Shown piece after piece: positions 2,649 to 56,546 of a DNA stretch of 64,000 nucleotides; the first letter of the stretch is position 1, and each line of letters opens with the position of its first letter. Origin of the DNA: Paracyclopina nana (Eukaryota > Arthropoda > Copepoda > Cyclopoida > Cyclopettidae). The notes beneath the pieces are model-generated. The model was not told the origin of the DNA. It saw nothing but the letters and a program-made list of their open reading frames with translations, and ran no database searches. The position numbers were made by a program, and so were the translations under genes. The DNA lies in NCBI GenBank assembly GCA_019096065.1, contig JAGUCH010000004.1, forward strand, positions 6,758,001 to 6,822,000, read 5' to 3'.

Positions 2649-5051
2649 CTAGAAAATAACAAAGTTGTCCTCTTCATCCTCTTCATCTTCTATAAATTGG
2701 AATTCCCCATCCAGACGGTCCACACCTTCAAACAAAAGGTTGTAGCAATCTCCAACAGGAGAGCTGAAATGGCTGTATGGATTTTCGTTGGGAAGTTTGG
2801 CGCCACATATGTAGCAAAAGTATGTTCCACACCTAGGAAATAGCATGATTAAAATAAAAAATAGGGGAGAGATGCTAGAATTACTTGTTGCAAGTCATTT
2901 TGTTGCAGCCCTCAGATTTCTGGATGGGAGCTTGACATTTTGGACAAGGTTTGGTATTTTCAGACAGGTAGGTTTCAGAAAGCATATTATTGACCATAGT
3001 TTGCAATTGCCTCTTCCCATATCTTTTTTCCATCAGCTCCTTTTCACTTCCATCAGCTCCCATATATTTTGTTATTAGAGCTCTTTGCTCCACTGATTTC
3101 ACCCTAAAATAAAAAATAAATTATCATTTCTTTATGTTATAGCAAAAAAGCAAATTGAGATGCTAGCATGCAAAGCTTGATTTTCAGTATTGACATTAGC
3201 AAAATGCAGCTATTTAAAAATGAAATCATAAATAAACTAACACCAATAACAAGATTTCAATCTTTACCTTAATTGGAAAAAAATTAAAATTAAAAATGCT
3301 CTGTTTGATAAAACAAAATGCCAACAAATCCATTCACTGATGGTATGTAAAGAAAAATGATAATGTAAAATAAAAAAAAATATCTTTATGTTCTGGATAT
3401 TTTATCCAAAGCTAGGAATGTACCTGCAAGGAGCCACTCCATGGAATGATGCATTACAATAAATGCAGAAAACATATGAGCACTTGGGATTCGGACATTG
3501 TCCCATATTGGCGTCTCGATCAATCAGAGTAGGACATTGGCAGTGCCTTCGAGGGCAAAGAATCACATCAGCCATGGTTTCCAAAGTGGTTGACAACAGC
3601 ACATCCTCATATAACTTGAAACTCTTCTCAGACACGAGGGACTTGACTTGATTGGGAAGAGCTTGAGACTTGCACTTGTCCTCGGGACAAATGAGGCTGG
3701 ACATTTGGCCTTCTTTGATTTGCACCTCAAAGTAGGACCTCATACAATCATTGCAGAAAATGTGCCCACACTCAGCAAACTTGAGGCAACTTTTGCCTGA
3801 TCTTTCAGCAAAGCAGACTTTGCAGCTGAAAATCTGTGAAGCAAAAGCTCGTTGCTCTTCAGATTCATTGAAAGCCTTCAAGGTCTTGACCAGGTCAGGC
3901 TCAATTAATTTTTGGGCTTCTGGAACTTGTCTCACTCTAGGGATTTCAGATCCTTCTTCTTTTTGCAGAGGATCTTGCAACTTAATAACTTGGACTGCTT
4001 CATAGAAATGTCTTCTAGTTTCTTTTATGGTGAATTCCACAGGAATGTGATGATTATGCTCGCTAGGCTTGAATTTGAGCTCATTCTCCTTGACAAACAA
4101 ATCAGCATCCAGCTCAGGAGTGTAAATAAATCCATATTTCTTAAGAAAATTCCAAAAAGACAAGTCCAAAGTTCCTTGGTATCTTGTTGATAGATCACAG
4201 CTTTCCAGTTGCTTTTCAGACTTTTTTGACACTTTGATGGCTTCAAATTGAGCAGAGTTCTTCCTTTTGAGGAAGAAAGTCACAACAGTAATTCCATTAA
4301 AATGGAAATTCATATTTGTGCGATGGACAAAGCATTGTAGGTGCAAAGCTGGACAATAAATGAATCCAAAGCCTTTTTGAACCATATACCTATCCAGAAT
4401 GCCTTTGTATTCCCTACTGAAATCCACCTCTTCTTTGTCAATACTGTCAGCCTTAGCTTCTTTTGTTTGAATCTGGTCAAGCTTGAGCAAAGTAGGGTCC
4501 AAACATAGGCTGCCATCACTGATTTGCAAAGTGTCAAAGCACTCATCTTTGATTTCTGAAATCCAACTGAAAAGAATCACATTTTGTTGGTTGTCAGTCC
4601 AAACCTGCTCAAATTTCCTCTGAATTTTGCCAATGGCTTCTGGAGTCAGCCAGGAGCATTCCAGTTGGAAGTAAGTACAAGATTTTGAGGGGTAATTTTT
4701 AGGATGAGCAAAGCGAATTTTCACAGGTGTCAAATAGCTGACAGAAAACTCGTGCGTTTGGCTGAAATGAAAGGTTTTTGGCTACAAAAGAATAACAGTA
4801 ATCTTAGGTGTTTACCTTTTCTCATCAGTCCAGGAAATCTTCAGCTGATCAGTGATGGCAGGAGAAACCTCTATCAGGCCTCCAATGGAACAATCAATGG
4901 GAAAATTAGCAAAAAAGTCCTCATTTTGGCTTGTTGACAGGCTCTCATAGTTGTCAGGGCTTTTTGCCCATAAGTGCACGTTTTCATCTCCACAAATCTC
5001 TTGGATGGCTAATAGTTCATTGATTTGCTCTTCCAGATCATTTTCACTCAT
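2649..5051 (-). CDS. RNF14-like: RNF14-like RWD-RBR E3 ubiquitin ligase with two inserted cold-shock-like domains
   Basis: Four exons: 4816-5051, 3424-4737, 2885-3103 and 2649-2832. Phases are continuous and give 650 residues, well above the about 475 of vertebrate RNF14. An RWD domain fills residues 1-145 (YPSKS...WLTPEAIG...VILFSWISEIKDE). RING1 starts at about residue 384 (CKVCF...CGHIFCNDCM), followed by the IBR and RING2 (CPKCQAPIQKSEGCNKMTC), which keeps the catalytic cysteine in EGCNKM. A highly acidic tail (EDEEDEEDN) ends the protein. Residues about 189-248 and 265-329 resemble cold-shock domains (KGFGFI...FVH and KKYGFI...DLFV), which I do not know from RNF14. RNF14 is known to act with GCN1 at stalled ribosomes and RNA-protein crosslinks. 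A nucleic-acid-binding insert would suit that role, but this is inference. Confidence 0.88.
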
Positions 5052-15091: not shown

Positions 15092-15976
15092 TCATGTTTC
15101 TTGCCACTTGGCAATCACATCTAGTAGCTCGTCTTCTTCATCGTTGGCCTCAATTGGTGCGGCGGTGGCGGGATGCGGAGGCTGCGCGTAGTAATAGTTG
15201 TAGTCGTAGCTCACGCTACTCGAGGTCATAGCTGAGGGACTGCTGGCAGTATTGCAATATTGAGGTAAAGCCTTGGAAAAGGGCGGTGTGCTCAGCCCAT
15301 CGAGGCCGTTGGGCGAGGCTGCCGACGAGTAGAAGCTGGAGGCGGTGTCGTAGCCGCTCTCATTGCAACGTTGGGCGCCATGTTGCACCGCAGCATTGCT
15401 GAGGAGCTGGTTAAAGTGGCCACCATTGGTGGGTGTGAGTGGGGTCAGCGGGCCTTCAGCCGGGCCCTGGTTGTGGGGCAGGTCCGTCAGCCCACCTTGA
15501 TGCACATTGAAGTGTCCATTTGTGGGAGTGAGAGGCGTGAGCGGGCTCTCGCTCAATTCCGCCCCACGTTGGGCGCCATGATACTGCTTGCTCTCCAGCA
15601 TCAGCTGCATCTGCTGGATGTACTCCACTGCATGCCTCAGAGTGTCCACCTTGGACATTTTCTTCTGCCTAGCCGCTGAAGGAATATGAGCTTTCAACAT
15701 CTCAAAGCCACTGTTGACTTGCTTCACCCGGTTCCTTTCCCGGGCATTGCGCCGCGCCACCTTGGCCGGCAGGGGGGGCTGGATGGCGTAGCCCAGTGTG
15801 GGGTGGAAGGCGATTTTCCGCCTGCAGCCCTTTGTGGATGTGGACGAGGTCACGGCCTCGGCAGAAGTGTTGGAGCACTTTGGCGCGATGGACTTGTGCA
15901 CCATGTTAACTGAGTGAAGGTTTGTGCTTGACTGAGGTGGGACGCGGAGGTCTCGCGCGTGCTTAGCACGAGCCAT
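15092..15976 (-). CDS. ASH: Achaete-scute family bHLH transcription factor
   Basis: A single-exon gene of 294 residues from the first in-frame ATG at 15976; a second candidate ATG lies at 15904. The bHLH domain contains the family-defining basic region ARRNARERNRVKQVN and helix 2 KMSKVDTLRHAVEYIQQM. The C-terminus is acidic, DEEDELLDVIAKWQET, matching the conserved tail motif of arthropod achaete-scute proteins. Between them lies a Ser/Pro/Thr-rich region with the phrase PLTPLTPTNG repeated twice. These factors dimerise with Daughterless/E proteins on E-boxes to specify neural precursors. The coding region is clearly more GC-rich than its surroundings. Wide non-coding flanks suggest complex enhancer control. 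Confidence 0.95.
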   Translation of the reverse strand: MARAKHARDLRVPPQSSTNLHSVNMVHKSIAPKCSNTSAEAVTSSTSTKGCRRKIAFHPTLGYAIQPPLPAKVARRNARERNRVKQVNSGFEMLKAHIPSAARQKKMSKVDTLRHAVEYIQQMQLMLESKQYHGAQRGAELSESPLTPLTPTNGHFNVHQGGLTDLPHNQGPAEGPLTPLTPTNGGHFNQLLSNAAVQHGAQRCNESGYDTASSFYSSAASPNGLDGLSTPPFSKALPQYCNTASSPSAMTSSSVSYDYNYYYAQPPHPATAAPIEANDEEDELLDVIAKWQET

Positions 15977-17739
15977 ATCAAGCCGCCGTTCGCGGCGCGA
16001 GCGACCAACAACAAAGGAACTTGCGCACGGCACCCGGCCGCTGCTGTTACACCGAGTATCCTTCCATTATGACCATAAAAGATGCTGCTTCTTATTTGCT
16101 TAAAATGTCCGATTCTATATTTTTCACTATGCTTTTGTTGCTGCCTTTATGTAATTGAATTTAGGCTATCTTTTTTGAATTTGTTGCGACATTTTTGGTA
16201 GTCATTTTTTGGCTGATTGAAGATAAGGGTAAAGATTCTCAAAAGCTGGACTTTCCTTGATTTAAGCCAAAATGCATTGTTTTTTAGCTTTCCTTGAGCA
16301 TTTTTGCAAGATATGGCTCAAATGAGCTGAACGTTAGAAAGTTTGCTGGAATTGGTAAAACGGCTAATGCCAGCAGTCTAAAAGGGTTTCTGTTTGGCAT
16401 TTGCCGAGATAAAAGCATTTTCTTGTTTATTCAGGGATCATGTTCAAAATGCAGCATATTTGCCCACCACTTTTGCAAGGACTGCAATACGACTTTTTTG
16501 AGCAACGAATAATATGCTGATACCAAGAAGTAAGCCGAAATGCTAATTAGCTAGCGTTGAAATCACCCAAATCCAAAAAATGTAGAAAAACCCACTAAAA
16601 AATGCTTTTCACAATTTCCGGCGTTGAAATCACCAAAGCAAAAAGCGAAGCAAAAATGGAAGTCGCTCAAAAAATGCAAAAGCTAGACAAAAATATCCGC
16701 TGCAGCTTTAGATCAGCGAGATGCACAGAGTTCAAATGCAGATTTTTTTGAGTAGAAAATTGGTAATTGTGCTCAGCACTGTGGAAAAATTATCGCAGCG
16801 TCGATCTCAGCAAGAGAGGAGAGCAAACAGTGTAGTATATAGAATAGAGCTCAGAGGTCGTTATTTGTTTTGCGTTTTTACTGGTGGGTGGTCAACTGGG
16901 AAGGTTTTATCTCTGCAAAATGACGGCCAAGAATAGAAGAAGGTGGCAATTTTGTCAGGTCTCAATTCCTATATCGGAGGACCGGCAAATAGTTTTCCCT
17001 TTCTAATTATCGCGCGAGAGCAGAGAACTCCGATATTGCAATAGAATTCTGTGGATTTTTCGCCGCGCGATGATTGTAGTGACATTTGGCTGCGACACAC
17101 ACCTGCCCCCGTTTCTGGAAATGTTATAATAATATTACAAGGTGCATTTCATGCCAGCTTCCTTATCTCAGTAAAACGAGTGAGAAGTGTTCAATTTTTA
17201 TCATAAAAATAAGGCTGAGAATGAGCCAAATCGAGTCTTCAAGAAAGAAACTCAGCTTGGTTCAATAGTTTAATTTTACATAATTTTAGTTGAGCACTTT
17301 AATAAAGATTCAAAAATTGGAATTGAATCATTTAAGTTTTTAGAGTTGTAAGCGAGGAATTCTGTGAGATTCTTTCGTATTGGGAAGGATAAAGGGCTCA
17401 TAATTGGACTTTTTATGGCTCTTTCCCCACCGTGGTGAGACAGAGTAAAGCTGCAATAAAGATGGGGACGATTTATGGCGCTCACTTTTCACTCGGTTCC
17501 CCCCATAGAAAAATGCTACAGTACAGAATACGTGTGGCTTCTGTGTGCCAGCCATTGTTGAACTTTACTCTGGCTCTGTTGCAGTTTCAAGCATTTTTCA
17601 ACTTCCGAATTCAGGCTTTTTTGTCGTGCAGACTCCAGTTCATATTTCACTTTTAGGTTTTCTTATGTGAAATGAAACGACCAACAACGAAAAAGTTGAA
17701 GACACAAATATGTGATTTACTTATATCTTATCAAATTTG

Positions 17740-28778: not shown

Positions 28779-28926
28779 AAAATTCTCACCCTCTTAATTA
28801 ATCTGTTGAGGACTTTTAGCTTTAGCTCAGTTATCTTAGCTTGCAGGCAGGAACTTGACTTTAAATGGCTCAGCCATAGAATTGGTTAACGTTTATTCTC
28901 GCGTGATTTATTGCCCGTTAACGAAG

Positions 28927-29730
28927 ATGGGCAATCTCAAGTGTGACGCTTGTCACAAGAGCTGTTCCACCAGAACTGAGCTTAAAAGCCATGTAAAGGG
29001 AGTGCACGAGAAAGAAAAGCCTTTTAGCTGTGATATTTGTGGAAATCGCTACACCAAAAGGTACATCCTGGAAGGCCATGTCAAGGCTGTGCACGAAGAG
29101 GCAAAGCCATTCAAGTGTGACATTTGTCACAGGAGCTGTTCCACCAGAACTGTGCTTAAAAGCCATGTAAGGGGAGTGCATGAGAAAGAAAAGCGATTTA
29201 GCTGTGATATTTGCGGAAATCGCTACACCAACAGGCTCATCCTGGAAGGCCATGTCAAGGCTGTGCACGAAGAGGCAAAGCCGTTCAAGTGTGACGCTTG
29301 TGATAAGCAGTTCAGCTTTAAGAGTAACCTAATAAGGCATGTTAAAGCTATTCATGAAAAGAAAAAGGCTCACGAATGCAGCATTTGCAGCAGAAAGTTT
29401 GGACTTTCAGGAAACCTCAATCGACATTTCAGAACAGTTCATCAGAATAAGACACTATTTCGATGTGACACTTGCGGCAAGTCATTCACTGCCAAGTGCA
29501 ATTATTCGTATCACATCACCACCGTACACCAAAAGATATATCCTTACAAATGCAGCATTTGTGGGCATTTATCTGGGTCGCGAGGGAACTTGCAAAAGCA
29601 CATCACATTCAGGCATGACTCAGCAAGACACACTTCATGTCACATTTGTGATGACAAGTTTCGCAATCTTGGAGAGCTGAAAATTCACATTGACAAGGCG
29701 CATATCAATAAGATGAGATCGAAGAGCTGA
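28927..29730 (+). CDS. C2H2 zinc-finger protein with nine tandem fingers
   Basis: A single exon of 267 residues from the first ATG, at 28927. Nine C2H2 fingers follow one another with H-x-x-x-H spacing and TGEKP-like linkers of the type HEKEKPF or HEEAKPF. Fingers 1-2 and 3-4 are near-identical pairs, offset by exactly 174 bp, so a two-finger unit has been duplicated. Fingers 5-9 are distinct. No KRAB, BTB, ZAD or SET domain is seen. A DNA-binding regulator is the natural inference, but target and orthology are unknown. A splice acceptor-like GCTTGCAG sits at about 28846, so an upstream non-coding or coding exon is possible. Confidence 0.85.
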   Translation: MGNLKCDACHKSCSTRTELKSHVKGVHEKEKPFSCDICGNRYTKRYILEGHVKAVHEEAKPFKCDICHRSCSTRTVLKSHVRGVHEKEKRFSCDICGNRYTNRLILEGHVKAVHEEAKPFKCDACDKQFSFKSNLIRHVKAIHEKKKAHECSICSRKFGLSGNLNRHFRTVHQNKTLFRCDTCGKSFTAKCNYSYHITTVHQKIYPYKCSICGHLSGSRGNLQKHITFRHDSARHTSCHICDDKFRNLGELKIHIDKAHINKMRSKS

Positions 29731-40303: not shown

Positions 40304-41924
40304 TCAGGATGGTCCCTCATTGTACACCCATGATGAGTGGAGCTGACCACTTTGTATTGCGGCAAACTTTTCATCGTCCACACCCAAGCATGAGAGACAG
40401 GTGTGGGCCTTGTCATAAACCAATGAGAAGCACATGGACATGATTGAGAGGCCCATCAGAAGATAAAGGCTACAAAAGGCAACAAATAGCCCATCAGTAC
40501 TCATGTCCTCTGTGGTCTGATTGGTCACATCGACCACTCCAACGGTGGTCATCATTGTGAAGGCAAAGTAAAAGCTGTCCACAAATGACCACTTGCCATG
40601 CTGGTAGGCACAGAACACTGAAGCACCTGCTGAGATGTAACAAAACACAAGCAAAAGGCACAACCACAGAGGGAACATGACCACCGGGCCACCACCCTCT
40701 TTGATTGATCGGTGTTGAATGTCCACCCTTTTACTTGCTAGCTGGATTTGATCTTGGCGGTCTACTTTTTGGCATACCAAATGTTTGTAGCATTTTCTGG
40801 CTGCTATGGCTAACCCAGCACCTGTCACAGATAAGTAGGCAACCAGCAGTGGCAAGCCCAAGGAAATGACCACAATGGCCACAACTTTGCCAGCTGAAGT
40901 CTCTGGCACCTTTTTGCCATTACCTGGAAAGAAATTTTATGTAATGGATGCCATATGATGAATGAATGACTGGAAATGGGACTTTTGCTCAATTGCTCTT
41001 GAGCAATCAATGAAATTGAGGCTATAAAAGCAATTTAGCTGAAAATCAATTCCAAGGCTGCAAAGCTTAGATTTTTTTGCTGCATTCAGGATTTTTCAAC
41101 TTACCAGTAGTGGTGATTAATGACAGGGAATACAAAAAGGAGGCAGCAAATGACCACTCATCTCTTGCTACATTGCTGTCCTGCTTATCATTTTTGTAAT
41201 CGTGCTGGGCATTTTGAAGAAACTCTGCTTGAAATTTGATCATTTCGCTGTCTGCCAAAGCAGTCCAGTTATCTTTGTACAAAATATTGAGCTTCTCGGT
41301 GATCTCCCACAGTTTTTCCACAGTTTGCTGGCGCACGGCACGTAATTGGTGCTCTTGCACACCTAGGCTGACCACCACTTCATTTGCTTTCACTTGAGCT
41401 CCTGCAAAATGATTAATGCATTATTTTTGTTGGCCAAGAATGTTGACAATGCATATTTCAGCATAAAGGAGGCGAAAACTGCAAAGAAAGCAAACTTGTG
41501 GCATTACTTAGTGGTTGTTGACTATAACTCTTTAGGAGCATTATACTAGCACTCAAGTTATCATCTATAGTAAACAGAAAAGTTTTGCTAATAATAATAA
41601 TAGGGTTATTCTGAGGTTGCCAAGGCCAAGAGAAGAGACCAAATTAATTATTTCTGCTTCATTGTCTGGTGGCCACCAAAAAAACAGGATTGTCACATTT
41701 TCCATTAATCTGATGAAAATTGGGGAATTACCTCCTCCTTCCACTCCAGCTGGTGAAGTCTCTAGGTTTGAAAAGACAAAAGCCCCACAAAGGACATAGG
41801 AAATGAGGACAAGTAGAGCTCCAAAGGTGCTGAACAACAAGGTGGAACACCTGCTGCAACACCTTCTTTGTTTTGAATCTTGAGAGGTCTGTGGGTCATA
41901 ATTTTCTGGATCCTTAGTGCTCAT
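40304..41924 (-). CDS. KCNK-like: Two-pore-domain potassium channel (first of two)
   Basis: Three exons: 41732-41924, 41105-41401 and 40304-40923, giving 369 residues to the first stop. Topology is canonical: TM1 at about residues 30-55, an extracellular cap, pore loop 1 ending TTTGNG, TM2 (VVAIVVISLGLPLLVAYL), TM3 (VVMFPLWLCLLLVFCYISAG), pore loop 2, and TM4 (FVAFCSLYLLMGLSIMSMC). Intron 2 splits the glycine codon of selectivity filter 1, a position shared with the second channel here. Filter 2 reads TTVGVVD, where T-x-G-(F/Y/L)-G-D is expected, so the second filter glycine is Val. K2P dimers carry background K+ leak. The frame continues open past the UGA stop. The closest family relatives are invertebrate TWK channels. 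Confidence 0.9.
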
Positions 41925-43401
41925 CTTGGTAGCTTTTTCATAACATTTTCAGCTGAAAAGAAAAAAAAAATAGCATTAACAGGACTTTATACCACTACTA
42001 TATGTATTGGGAGAACAGTAACCAATAATAGGAATGTATTTGGTATAGGCTATTGCCTCTACTTTTTGCAGCTTAACTACCCAATTAAAAGGAGCATACT
42101 ACTTCTTCTAGCTAGCTGCATTTATCTCTCTCTCTTTCTTCAGAGATGTGGATGTGTTGGGGGGAAAATCTGGTGAGGAAAATTGGGATTTGTGTCTGCT
42201 CCTACAAGGAGGAAAAATAGCTGTGAGCTGATTCCAGTTATCAAATAAGCTTTCCATCTTTTTCCCACTGATGTTTAAACCACACTGTTCTATCAAAGCT
42301 CACTTTCTAATCTGGTCAGATTTTCACCTAAAAATTCCTCATACTACAACTTGTGCTCCTAAGTTGTTATATTGGTCGTTTTATGGAGGTATGGCCACAG
42401 CATGCTTTTCAGGCCTGTTTTGTCGCATTGTCTACATTTACATACTACTTTATACTGTGATCATGCAGTGTGTTACTCCAAAGTATACAGCAGTCTAATT
42501 AGAAAGCTGTACTTGAACATATGTGTGTGTGTAATCTGGAAAACGATGCAAAATTGACACTTTTTTTGAAGGCTGGCCAAAAGAAGAAGAAGAAGATACA
42601 AGAGATTGTTTTGTTTTAACAATTTTATGAAATAAACATGAAAACATCTTAGAAAATGCCCTTTCTTGAAATTGATGATTTAATCTTGGGCCAAATTGGC
42701 ACAGTTTTATCTAGCCTAGTAGCATATTTGGTACATTTTTATGGCTGCCATCCTGCTCTCTTTATCAGATGGATATCTTTATCTTTTGCAGACTCTCTAT
42801 AATTTGGGTCAATATGCTATTGCCCCTGTTCTACAGCAGTGGCTCAAATTTTGAAACAGCTAATAAAGTTTGATGGCCATTCTATCATAAAAAATGATTT
42901 ATGGAGGGGCATTATTATAGTTGAGCTTTCTTCCTGCTAGCACATTACTGAAATATGTAAATTCTCTCCAATGCATCATGCCACTTTTCACTTGGGTGGG
43001 GAGAAAGCATATTATGTGATCTGAATTGGAAAAATTGGCATGACAAAGATGGTTGTGGGTGATAAGGAAATGCATTTTCTGATATGTAGTACTACATAGA
43101 AATTGGGCAATCTCTCTCAATAGGGCACAATTATGTGCTCTTTCACCCAAAGTTATGGCAGAACAACTATAAAATGGTTAAAAAATCCTTTAATGGCTTT
43201 TTTGTTTTGGCTCACAGACAAGCTTTGGCCCAGCTATGTTTAATATGATGTTTTCACAGCTTCAAAAGTCATGGCATTGCCAAAAGCTTCATTTGCATTT
43301 TGGCTTTTAGCTTTGAGAGCCATGAATTTGAATTGCTTGCTCCTCCAAATAAGAGAGGTTTTCTTGAAGGCTTTCTTGTTGCTATGATAGTAAAACAAAT
43401 G

Positions 43402-51749: not shown

Positions 51750-54700
51750 TCACTCTTCATCCATGTTTGGGTTGTGAGAAGTTCTGGCCAGCCTTCTGCC
51801 CAAGGATCGCACACCCTTGACGACTTTCTCCTGCATCAAATTAAAGCACATGGCAATTAGGGCCATGCCTATCAAGATGTAGGCTGAGCACAGCACAAAC
51901 TTGGTGTTCACAGGCGCGACTTTTGACAACTCGGGTCCACTAGAAATGGCATCACCAGGGACCATGTCTCCAAAGCCAATGGTACTGAGGGTAATAAAGC
52001 AAAAGTAGGATCCATCGAGGTAGCCCCAGCCTTCCCACTCGGAGAAAAGCAAAGCTCCGCCTGAAAGCAGAATTGAGAAGAGCCAATGAAAAGCAATAGC
52101 TTGTAATTGACTAATTAATTTGTCAAGTAGATCACTGAGGCAACTTTCTATAATTAAAACCATAAAAATAGTATTTGGTCAGTTTGATGTAAGAATTGCA
52201 AATTTCAGTTTGCTTTTAGGATTAAATCATTAATAACTGTTGAGTAAAGATTAAATAAGTTATTTAAATATGTGAAAAATGTCAAGTTTGCAATTATATT
52301 GTCAATGCTGAAAGCTTGCTTAGCTAGTGACTTTGCTCACCTACAACATAGGCAACCATGACAAGTAAACAAAGGCTAATAGGTACTGTGACATCCTCAA
52401 GGTTCACAATTCGGCTGCTGGAGCTGTTGGAGCTGTTGTGGCCTCCCGGACCCACAACAATTCGAGGCTGGTCATCAGAGTACTCTGAGCTGGGCAAGTT
52501 TCCTGAATGAATGCTGGATGTGGACTCCTCCACGTTGCCATTGAGTGCATTGAGGCCATGGATGTGGTGGGGCAAGTAGTGAATTCTGTAGGCTTCAGGC
52601 TTCTTGAGAATGCCACTGGGCACTTTGTCTGAGAGGGGCTTTGGCCCACGTTGGCACTTGCACAGCCTCGAATATGTCCATTTGAAGCTCTTGGCCATGA
52701 TGTCACCAATGTTGGAGAGGTAGAGAAGGAAGAGAGGAATGCCAACTATGGCGTAGAAAATGGTCACCAGTTTCCCCACTGGGGTAATGGGGACAATATG
52801 CCCATAGCCTGAAATCATACTTTTCAACATGTTGCTGAGCTCTGCTATAATGAACTTTTTTCCTTCAAGGCTGCCAACTTTTGAGGGTGAATATCATTAG
52901 CAAGATGCCGAGAAGCACCACAGTTCCAGAGTTTTTCAATAAAACTTTGTGGACAGATGATGATGTGAGCTTGAACTTGGCATTTATGGAAGTTTTACTG
53001 AGGGGTTTGCTTGAACATTGATTTAAAGCCGCTTTCCAACTTTGATGGCATAATGCATTTGCTGAAAATTGAGGGGCATCTTGAAAATTGTTTGGTGATG
53101 CTATCATGGTGTAAAATCTGTATTTAAAGAAAAAAAGGCTTCATTTGTAGAATTAGAGTTTCATTCTAAGTAGGTTTGAAGTTTCATTCTTATAAAAAAC
53201 AATGCTTAAATCTAAAAGCTTCATTTGAAGTAAAAAGTTTCATTTGAAGAAGAAAAGCGTCATTTGAAATATGAAGCTTCATTTAAAATAAAAAGCTTCA
53301 TTTAAAGAAAAAAAAGCTTAATTTGATGTCAAAACTTTTGAAGGAACACGCTTAATTTGTGGGGAAAAGCTTCTATTGAAATGTAACGGGTTCATATTTC
53401 ATTTGAAGAAAAAGCTTCATTTGAAGAAAAAAACTTCATTTGACGTAAAAAGCTTGATTTATAGAAAAAAAGCTTCATTTGAAGTAAAAAAAGCTTCATT
53501 TGAAGTAAAAAAAGCTTTATTTGAAATAAAAAGCTTTATTTGAAATAAAAAGCTTTATTTGAAATAAAAAGCTTCATTTGAAGAAAAAAAAGCTTCATTT
53601 GAAATAAAAAGCTTTATTTGAAATAAAAAGCTTCAATTGAAGGAAAAAGCTAAATTTGAATATGATAGCTTCAATTCATTTTGATAGCTTCTATTCAATA
53701 TGATAGCTTCAATTCAATTCAGTAGCTTCATTTCAGTAAGAGATTATTTCTATTCAATAGCTTCATTTTAAAAAATAGCTTCATTTCAAGGAAACATTTT
53801 CATTTCCTTGAAATTGCTCGAAATTTATGAAAAAGCTTTAAAAAAACTTCATTTGAAGGAAGAAGCTTTATTTGAAGGAAAAAGCTTCATTTGAAGAAAA
53901 AAGCTTCAATTTGAAGAAGAAAAGTATTATTTGAAACAAAAGCTTCATTTGATGAAGAAAAGCATTGTTTGAAATAAAAGCTTCATTATGAAAAAAAGCT
54001 TCATTTTGAAAAAAAGCTTCATTTGATGAAGAAAAGCATTGTTTGAAATAAAAGCTTCATAATGAAAAAAGCTTCATTTAAAAAAAAAGCTTCATTTGAA
54101 AAAAAGCTTCATTTGAAAAAAAGCTTCATTTGAAGTTAATTGATTCATTTGAAGTTAATTGATTCATTTGAAGTTAATTGATTCATTTGAAGAAAAAAGC
54201 TCTATTTGAAGAAAAAAAGCTTCATTTGAGTTCATTTGAAGAAAAAGCTATGTTTGAGGGAACACGCTTGATTGAATAGAAAAGGCTTCAATTCAAGTAA
54301 AAGCTTCATATGAATATGACGGCTTATATTCAATGCAATAGCTTCATTTCAATGAAGAAGCTTTTTGCAATACCTTGATATTTATAAAACTGCTTAATAA
54401 AGCTTCGTTTGAACATAATTGCTTTGTTTGAGTGTGGCTTGAATGAATCGAAGAGATTCTTTAGAACGAACAAGCTTCATTCGAAGTAAAAGGCTTCATT
54501 TGAAGTACAAAGCCGAAAAATCCGTCTGACAAAGGCTCAAATCGTAGCTAGGTCAAGGCCTCGGCGCTAGCACTATGAGCTATCTAGCATCCTTAATTAC
54601 CTATGGTAGTGATCACAGTGATTGAGTAGAGCAGGGCGCCAGTGAAGGTCCACTTTTCGGGCGGGTTGTCCGCGCCGTCGTAGCCCCGGTGAGCCTCCCT

Positions 54701-55051
54701 GATGATCCTCTGCTGGTACTGCTGAATGAGTTGCGACACTTGCTCCGTCCAATTGAGCGGGTGGAGCGTGTTGAGCTCGAGCGTGATGCTCCACATTTGG
54801 GCCACCGTCTGGGCCCTGTAGTCACCCACTCTGAAGCGGATGTCCAGCTCGGCGGGGCCCTCCAGCTGCTGGAACATGACAGCCCCAACCATGAGGTAGG
54901 CGATGACCACCACACAGATGCCGACCTTGCTGAACACAAAGGCCACTGTGGCCCTTATGCCGTCCTTGATCCGCTTCTTCCATGGCCGTTTTCGTCGCGG
55001 TGGGCTCGAGATCGAGCGGAGCGACTCCAACTCCACCAACTCCTCATGCAT
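51750..55051 (-). CDS. KCNK-like: Two-pore-domain potassium channel (second of two)
   Basis: Three exons: 54601-55051, 52341-52808 and 51750-52060, with continuous phase and 409 residues. TM1 ([22 protein letters not shown]) is followed by a cap, pore 1 TTIGYGHIVP, TM2 ([20 protein letters not shown]), a long cytosolic loop with a Ser/Asn/Gly-rich stretch, TM3, pore 2 [12 protein letters not shown] and TM4 ([19 protein letters not shown]). Both selectivity filters are canonical. Intron 1 (1.8 kb) splits the first filter glycine codon, is far longer than other introns here and is filled by a minisatellite. The start is the first ATG after an in-frame stop; an upstream exon cannot be excluded. 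Exon 1 is unusually GC-rich for the window. Confidence 0.92.
53180..54500. repeat. Minisatellite of AAAAAGCTTCATTTGAAG units in a channel intron
   Basis: More than 50 units of about 17-22 nt with the palindromic core CTTCATTTGAAG and a preceding AAGCTT. It fills most of intron 1 of the second K2P gene. Units drift (GCTTTATTTGAAAT, GATTCATTTGAAGTTAATT), and three 20-nt GTTAATTGATTCATTTGAA copies sit together near 54.13-54.19 kb. Confidence 0.9.
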
Positions 55052-56546
55052 GATGCCGCCACACAGGTCACCATGTTGGCAGTGACCACCACCATGAATC
55101 ACGAGAAGTCATGCCAGGCTGATCTCGAGGTAGTTGCTGCAAATGTCGGCCTTCGTCGCTCAAAAAGCCACTTCACACTGACGTGACGGCTGCTTTCACC
55201 TGTGAGACAAGCTAGAGCTGCTCAAGCTCTCCTATATAACAGCTATGGAGTAGGTCCCAAGGCTGCTGAAGGAAGGCCGAGCCTTGACGATTACATCATC
55301 GAGAGGTGATTTTGCCCTTTTAGGATAGAATGCTGGATTATTCGAGCATATATAGGCTGATCTTGATCATGTATGTGCTAAAATTGGTTTTAGGGAAATT
55401 CAAATACCTTTTGCGTATGAAAAAAGATCTGATTTTTAGATAATGATCTACTGTGAAAAGTCCGCTGTGTGACATGTCCAGATAAACCAAGTCTGGTTAA
55501 AAAAGATCTGGTACTAAGAGTCCGCTCATTTAAAGACCGTGATAATCAGCTCCGCAAATCTCAGGTAATCCTCAAATACATATGGATAGTCTTTTTCTTT
55601 AGAAGGTTTGGTGAGTTCAATTTTAAAAGTTAGAATTTTTCTTGAATGAAGTGACAGGCTGTTGCCGTTATGGATAATGGCCTGCATTAGCAAGCTGTGA
55701 TCGTTGCAACTTTGTGTGAAATCACTTCTTTTATGACACCTTTGAGCGCAGGCCGGCAAAGTTGTATGCTCTCACCCCGTCAAGATCTTATAAAGAAGTG
55801 AAAACCTGTCATTCTGGCTCACATTTCAAATTTGAAAAGTCAACAGCTCCCATGGGACCTTTTTTCACAGCTGCTCTCCTCCTGCCATAAATGGTTTGAT
55901 TCAAGAATGGGGGGAACAAGACTGAGAGAAGCAAGCTAGCTTTTCCTCAAAATGACCCCATTTGTGTGAAAAGAAAGCCACTTAAAGCTAAAAAACGATC
56001 ATTTTCCACCCAAGAAGTGGAGAAGAAGCTTTCTAAATTTCCTTTTTTTCTTACTGTGTGACGCAGTCAATTAGAATAGCCTATTCTAGTATGAAAACAT
56101 TGAGCTATTCTCTTACATACTACAGCATAGTAGTGGGAGAATTCTCTTGATCTTGTAAAATGGGTGAAATCGATTTTCCTCTTATTGAATGATGGGCTAA
56201 CTTTTGTGATTCAATAGGCAGGGAAAAAAGTTGATCATGATCACTGCATCTGGTCTAAATTCTTGTGAAATGGGAGGGCTTTGAAATGCCCATAAAACTG
56301 AGATTTGCATTAAACTTGCTTTTATTGGCAATGCACTTTCTTCTTCTCTTCTTTGTTGCAATTTTTTATAGGCGTACTTATAGCAGGGGTTAAAAGCTAG
56401 CAGTAGTTGTAGTAGTGTTTATGCTCTCTGAGGCAAATGTCTGCATTTCATCAAGTTCTCTCTCTGCTTTTCAACTGCTGCTGCTGCTGCTGTGGATTAT
56501 GAACCACAAAAAGAAATAAACTTTGCTACATTTTGTTTATTTTCAG
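55052..56546. other. 5' flank of the second K2P gene and intergenic space
   Basis: No gene is supported. A CTG run occurs near 56480. TATATA-like words at 55233 and 55350 could serve the channel promoter on minus. Open frames of up to 77 codons have no family features. Confidence 0.45.

Follow-up and report, generated by a model that had tools for sequence, protein, structure and literature searches.

A predicted pair of cold-shock domains between RWD and RING1 in an RNF14-type ubiquitin ligase gene of the copepod Paracyclopina nana

The ubiquitin ligase RNF14 has been described as an RWD domain followed by an RBR (RING1-IBR-RING2) module, the human protein being 474 amino acids (aa) long with its RWD domain at residues 11-137 (available text of PMC10931611). 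The RWD domain of RNF14 is bound by GCN1, RNF25 acts alongside, and the RNF14 axis drives the degradation of ribosome-trapped factors and mRNA-crosslinked proteins (available portions of PMC10931611 and PMC12868832). Cold-shock domains (CSDs) are described as binding single-stranded nucleic acid mainly by base stacking on aromatic residues, with RNP1 and RNP2 motifs of the form [YF]-G-F-I and [YF]-[YF]-H, respectively (accessible sections of PMC7825780), and the non-canonical CSDs of Unr as scaffolds with an extended beta1-beta2 loop and without RNA-binding residues (accessible part of PMC7383231). Here, a gene is analysed at positions 2649-5051 (minus strand) of a 64,000-nucleotide stretch of the Paracyclopina nana genome (contig JAGUCH010000004.1, positions 6,758,001 to 6,822,000; the whole stretch is referred to as the window). 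Its predicted product is an RNF14-type ligase with two CSDs in the linker between RWD and RING1. This was the claim of the original prediction, and it is upheld by profile, shuffle and internal-repeat evidence, with structure prediction as further support for the second domain. We infer, at a probability of roughly 0.55, that the linker gained the CSD pair and that the pair would grip single-stranded RNA to aid ubiquitin targeting.

A protein combining RNF14 with CSDs was not found in literature searches of openly licensed papers. The term 'cold shock' is absent from the main text of PMC12741051, the main text of a paper on non-canonical CSDs does not mention RNF14, RING, IBR or ubiquitin, and a CSD review contains none of 'ring finger', 'ubiquitin' and 'RWD'.

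The cold-shock domain pair in the linker

The two repeats are encoded on the minus strand at 4224-4409 (CSD1, residues 197-258) and 3978-4181 (CSD2, residues 273-340). CSD1 possesses the RNP1 motif KGFGFI (208-213) and the RNP2 motif CFVH (222-225); in CSD2 these are KKYGFI (286-291) and DLFVK (299-303), and the C-terminal pattern V-x-F...EAxxV closes both repeats. The motifs KGFGFI/KKYGFI, FVH/DLFV and V-x-F...EAxxV had been pointed out before and are present at 3987-4409 (minus strand), within one uninterrupted coding exon (3424-4761). The two domains had been placed at residues 189-248 and 265-329; their number stands, while this numbering is about 8 too low when set against the spliced gene model.

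The Pfam search of the linker that had been proposed gave a positive result: with the insert alone (the linker segment holding both repeats), CSD (PF00313) was the top match at 30.3 bits (cut-off 27, E 4e-7). It also ranked first for the single halves, at 18.6 bits for CSD1 (E 0.0018) and 17.4 bits for CSD2 (E 0.0041), both below the cut-off of 27. The second Pfam match of the insert was OB_RNB (20.5 bits, cut-off 24), and kinship with this RNase II type domain was rejected as weaker than that with CSD; the genome yielded no PF08206 match at E<=0.1. Matches among NCBIfam models were to CspD, CspE, CspG, a retron effector, CspA and RecX, none near its own cut-off, and the PHROGs match was a cold-shock family (E 0.00043). 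A sequence search of the PDB with the insert gave a best E of 0.76, the entry (2mqh) being the cold-shock domain of Chlamydomonas NAB1. No relatives were found among the 24 candidate stretches returned by a viral_contigs search with the insert.

A hidden Markov model (HMM) was also built from bacterial and phage cold-shock proteins (CSPs). These were drawn from 160 loci (the best 80 of 129 and the best 80 of 155), which gave 104 distinct rows and, at a 75% identity cut, 46 sequences, all of which entered the HMM. It scored the insert at 28.8 bits, CSD1 at 15.4 and CSD2 at 17.4, scores that 0 of 20,000 shuffles reached in each case (shuffle maxima 14.3, 13.2 and 12.2, respectively; shuffles absent from the program output scored below its listing level). 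With this HMM, scores were 0.1 bits for the RWD part and 2.3 bits for the RING part of the protein. Comparison of the CSD pair with the CSPs by hhalign covered 65 columns with a probability of 88% (E 3.2e-6). When compared with each other, CSD1 and CSD2 showed 33% identity over 72 columns (E 2e-9, from a single comparison), which suggests an internal duplication. On these profile results, both linker repeats are identified as cold-shock domains.

Both reading frame and codon usage mark the DNA of the insert as coding. Its frame is intact over 154 codons, whereas none of 20,000 base shuffles remained free of stop codons in frame, and it matches the codon usage of the remaining gene most closely when read in the coding frame. 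Its G+C content is somewhat lower (0.365) than that of the remainder of the exon (0.415 and 0.446). A retained intron or misjoined frame is not supported, in view of the single open exon, the coding-frame codon usage and the lack of a GTRAG donor across residues 166-210, GTRAG donors being the only ones considered. An Rfam scan of the whole window gave no match.

Gene model and ligase domains

The joined gene model is complete, with four exons, 658 aa and a stop codon at its end. The exon borders are GT/AG, and the splice sites were picked by eye so as to join the four exons into a single open frame. All exons are on the minus strand. Exon 1 (4816-5051; GT/AG borders, uninterrupted frame) holds the start codon and the first half of the RWD domain (residues 1-78), and exon 2 (3424-4761; open frame, splice sites by eye) the remaining RWD, both CSDs, RING1 and part of the RBR. 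In the model, exon 3 (2885-3103) encodes the IBR-to-RING2 region and the start of RING2, and exon 4 (2649-2832; open frame) the end of RING2, an acidic C-terminus and the stop codon.

The RWD domain (4542-5033, minus strand, with intron 1 inside this span; residues 7-152) was matched by Pfam at 55.4 bits (E 8.4e-15, cut-off 22.8), and IBR was matched in the full protein at 50.9 bits in two stretches (cut-off 24.3). RING1 is placed at about residues 391-440 (3678-3827, minus strand) by its alignment to the RBR of ARIH1, Pfam RING-type matches within 391-439 being below their cut-offs. The alignment with ARIH1 spans residues 385-525 and 567-608, and a PDB sequence search gave 41 distinct sequences at E<=0.001, with the RBR ligases ARIH1, RNF216 and ARIH2 at the top and parkin and others also present. 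RING2 contains the motif GCNKMTC (residues 590-596), of which Cys591 is presumably the catalytic cysteine; this motif and the acidic C-terminus are taken to resemble those of human RNF14. By this architecture and this presumed likeness of the C-terminus, the protein is assigned as an RNF14-type RWD-RBR ligase. The CSD segments seem unlike an ordinary RNF14 linker, judging from a second RWD-RBR gene of the genome that lacks the insert and, by length alone, from the 474 aa of human RNF14 (available text of PMC10931611).

RNA contact and alternative roles of the pair

The RNP1 consensus [YF]-G-F-I is satisfied in both repeats (FGFI, 210-213; YGFI, 288-291). For RNP2, CSD1 has FVH and CSD2 has FVK, without the histidine; FVH was also found in most of the bacterial and phage CSPs compared, so the strict form [YF]-[YF]-H does not define the family. 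CSD1 is basic (net charge +6) and keeps FGF and FVH, while CSD2 keeps YGF and the RNP2 phenylalanine. CSD1 may be the likelier RNA binder; CSD2 may bind RNA as well or play a supporting part, like the non-canonical CSDs of Unr described in the accessible part of PMC7383231.

The favoured working of the ligase would run as follows. Tandem CSDs would have been gained by the linker, the simplest route being that a single CSD was captured and then duplicated. Through its RWD domain the ligase would attach to GCN1 where ribosomes have collided, and the CSD pair, with CSD1 in the main role, would hold nearby single-stranded RNA such as mRNA. The RBR would then pass ubiquitin via RING2 (Cys591) to proteins caught in the A site or on the RNA so held. 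The link between RWD and GCN1 and the role as a ligase are taken from published work on other species. A more specific form, in which RNF14 of one animal lineage reads RNA directly, the CSDs holding mRNA between or beside collided ribosomes with RWD on GCN1 and crosslinked proteins thereby presented to the RBR, is put forward tentatively.

Several observations weigh against the RNA-gripping reading. The full protein scored only 18.1 bits against Pfam CSD, under the cut-off of 27, and a genome-wide PF00313 search gave 8 matches, the RNF14-type locus not being among them; the architecture is known from one genome. A single-sequence AlphaFold model of the insert reached a mean pLDDT of 43.9, a poor result, and had no Foldseek match at E<=0.001. 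On the supporting side, the structure prediction that had been proposed for the linker favoured CSD2: AlphaFold with an alignment of bacterial and phage CSPs gave a five-strand CSD barrel at pLDDT 91-96, which Foldseek and VIA matched to CSD structures. This model, built on CSPs and without a control model, is a test of compatibility and not independent proof. CSD1, which no alignment rows covered, was predicted to form strands beyond residue 209, with confidence from low to intermediate, and its expected first strand is a low-confidence helix in both models. The alignments used 39 of the 46 CSPs: alignment A1 was dropped, since CSD1 was matched there by the N-terminal ends of the CSPs, and in A2 these ends were trimmed, so that each of the 39 rows is aligned to CSD2 (in both alignments row 1 starts with M, its first codon being GTG, where the actual residue is V). 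The first two Foldseek ranks for the modelled insert were fragments of Drosophila Unr, although their root-mean-square deviations, taken across the entire alignment, were 10.3 and 14.4. At the level of single residues, CSD1 has Arg203 at the position of the first-strand tryptophan of CSPs and CSD2 has Lys303 in place of the RNP2 histidine, which suggests that RNA binding may be weak; the net charge of CSD2 is -2.

Part of this evidence would suit a pair that acts as a protein-contact or spacing module, fixing how far apart or in what orientation RWD and RBR lie, or binding a ribosomal or ribonucleoprotein protein. The model for this is Unr, whose non-canonical CSDs do not bind RNA by themselves; the accessible part of PMC7383231 describes them as scaffolds. 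The slightly acidic CSD2 without its RNP2 histidine fits such a role, as does its extra length of two residues over CSD1, directly ahead of RNP1. However, the FGF and FVH of CSD1 are retained, unlike in the Unr domains, which are described in the same source as lacking RNA-binding residues, and five aromatic positions of CSD2 are retained as well; this explanation is considered somewhat unlikely.

The insert could also be a lineage-specific decoration that the linker tolerates and that changes the action of RNF14 little. The linker position does tolerate a change in length, as the second RWD-RBR gene lacks the insert, and the somewhat low G+C of the insert and its strong divergence from the eight CSD pieces of the genome that were compared (best 9.2 bits) would agree with this. 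Nevertheless, the core and RNP positions are kept in both repeats despite this divergence and the frame of 154 codons is intact, which suggests selection; mere decoration is considered improbable. That an ordinary linker merely looks like CSD motifs by chance would be compatible with the sub-threshold full-length score and the poor first structure model, but this was rejected as very improbable, as none of 60,000 shuffles (20,000 each for the insert, CSD1 and CSD2) reached the real scores, cold-shock families were indicated by three libraries (Pfam, NCBIfam and PHROGs) and the two halves match each other.

Genome context and comparison with known systems

At E<=10 the insert has only one location in the 92 Mb genome, and a recent transposon-like copy was rejected on this basis. 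When the eight CSD pieces of the genome were compared with the halves of the insert, none was clearly nearer, and with all pairwise scores at or below 9.2 bits the comparison points to no one CSD gene of this genome as the source. The region C9:3286853-3289467 accounts for five of the eight genome-wide PF00313 matches and is likely a CSDE1/Unr gene, named from the match pattern only. A GCN1-like gene (PF23271, 50.1 bits) and an RNF25-like gene (RWD and RING, the RING judged by eye) are also encoded, so the pathway in which human RNF14 acts seems to exist in this animal. Elsewhere in the window, open frames were recognized by eye for an achaete-scute-like bHLH (15095-16066, minus strand) and a run of C2H2 zinc fingers (28840-29727, plus strand), and two-pore potassium channel-like frames with GYG/GFG filter motifs (by eye) form an apparent local cluster on the minus strand (40307-41948, 51753-52893 and 54596-55108).

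The CSD pair would bear on the question of how RNF14, apart from its docking on GCN1, recognizes its targets at stalled ribosomes and RNA-protein crosslinks. If the tentative direct reading of RNA were true, it would add a substrate-finding step that has no counterpart in the chain of human RNF14. A natural RNF14 with an RNA-binding-type module, from a genome with GCN1-like, RNF25-like and module-free RWD-RBR genes as well, would offer a direct test of whether RNA contact aids target choice. Since the full-length protein scores below the Pfam cut-off, Pfam annotation would miss the CSD pair, and similar fusions elsewhere may have been missed.

Among known systems, the protein shares with RNF14 (ARA54), an animal RWD-RBR E3 ligase, the N-terminal RWD domain and the RBR (RING1-IBR-RING2) behind it; it differs from the human protein in its length (658 aa vs 474 aa, the latter from the available text of PMC10931611) and in the two predicted CSDs between RWD and RING1. 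The second, divergent RWD-RBR gene of the same genome (C3:10398209-10399573; a single open frame of 475 aa without the insert) also has RWD and RBR in common with it, but there RWD and RING1 are nearly adjacent, the RING1 motif beginning at residue 160. With Y-box and CspA-type CSDs the repeats have the RNP1 and RNP2 positions in common, along with the five-strand barrel predicted for CSD2, whereas they are far more divergent and are located inside an E3 ligase. Tandem CSDs are likewise found in Unr/CSDE1, which, unlike the protein of the window, is without ligase domains.
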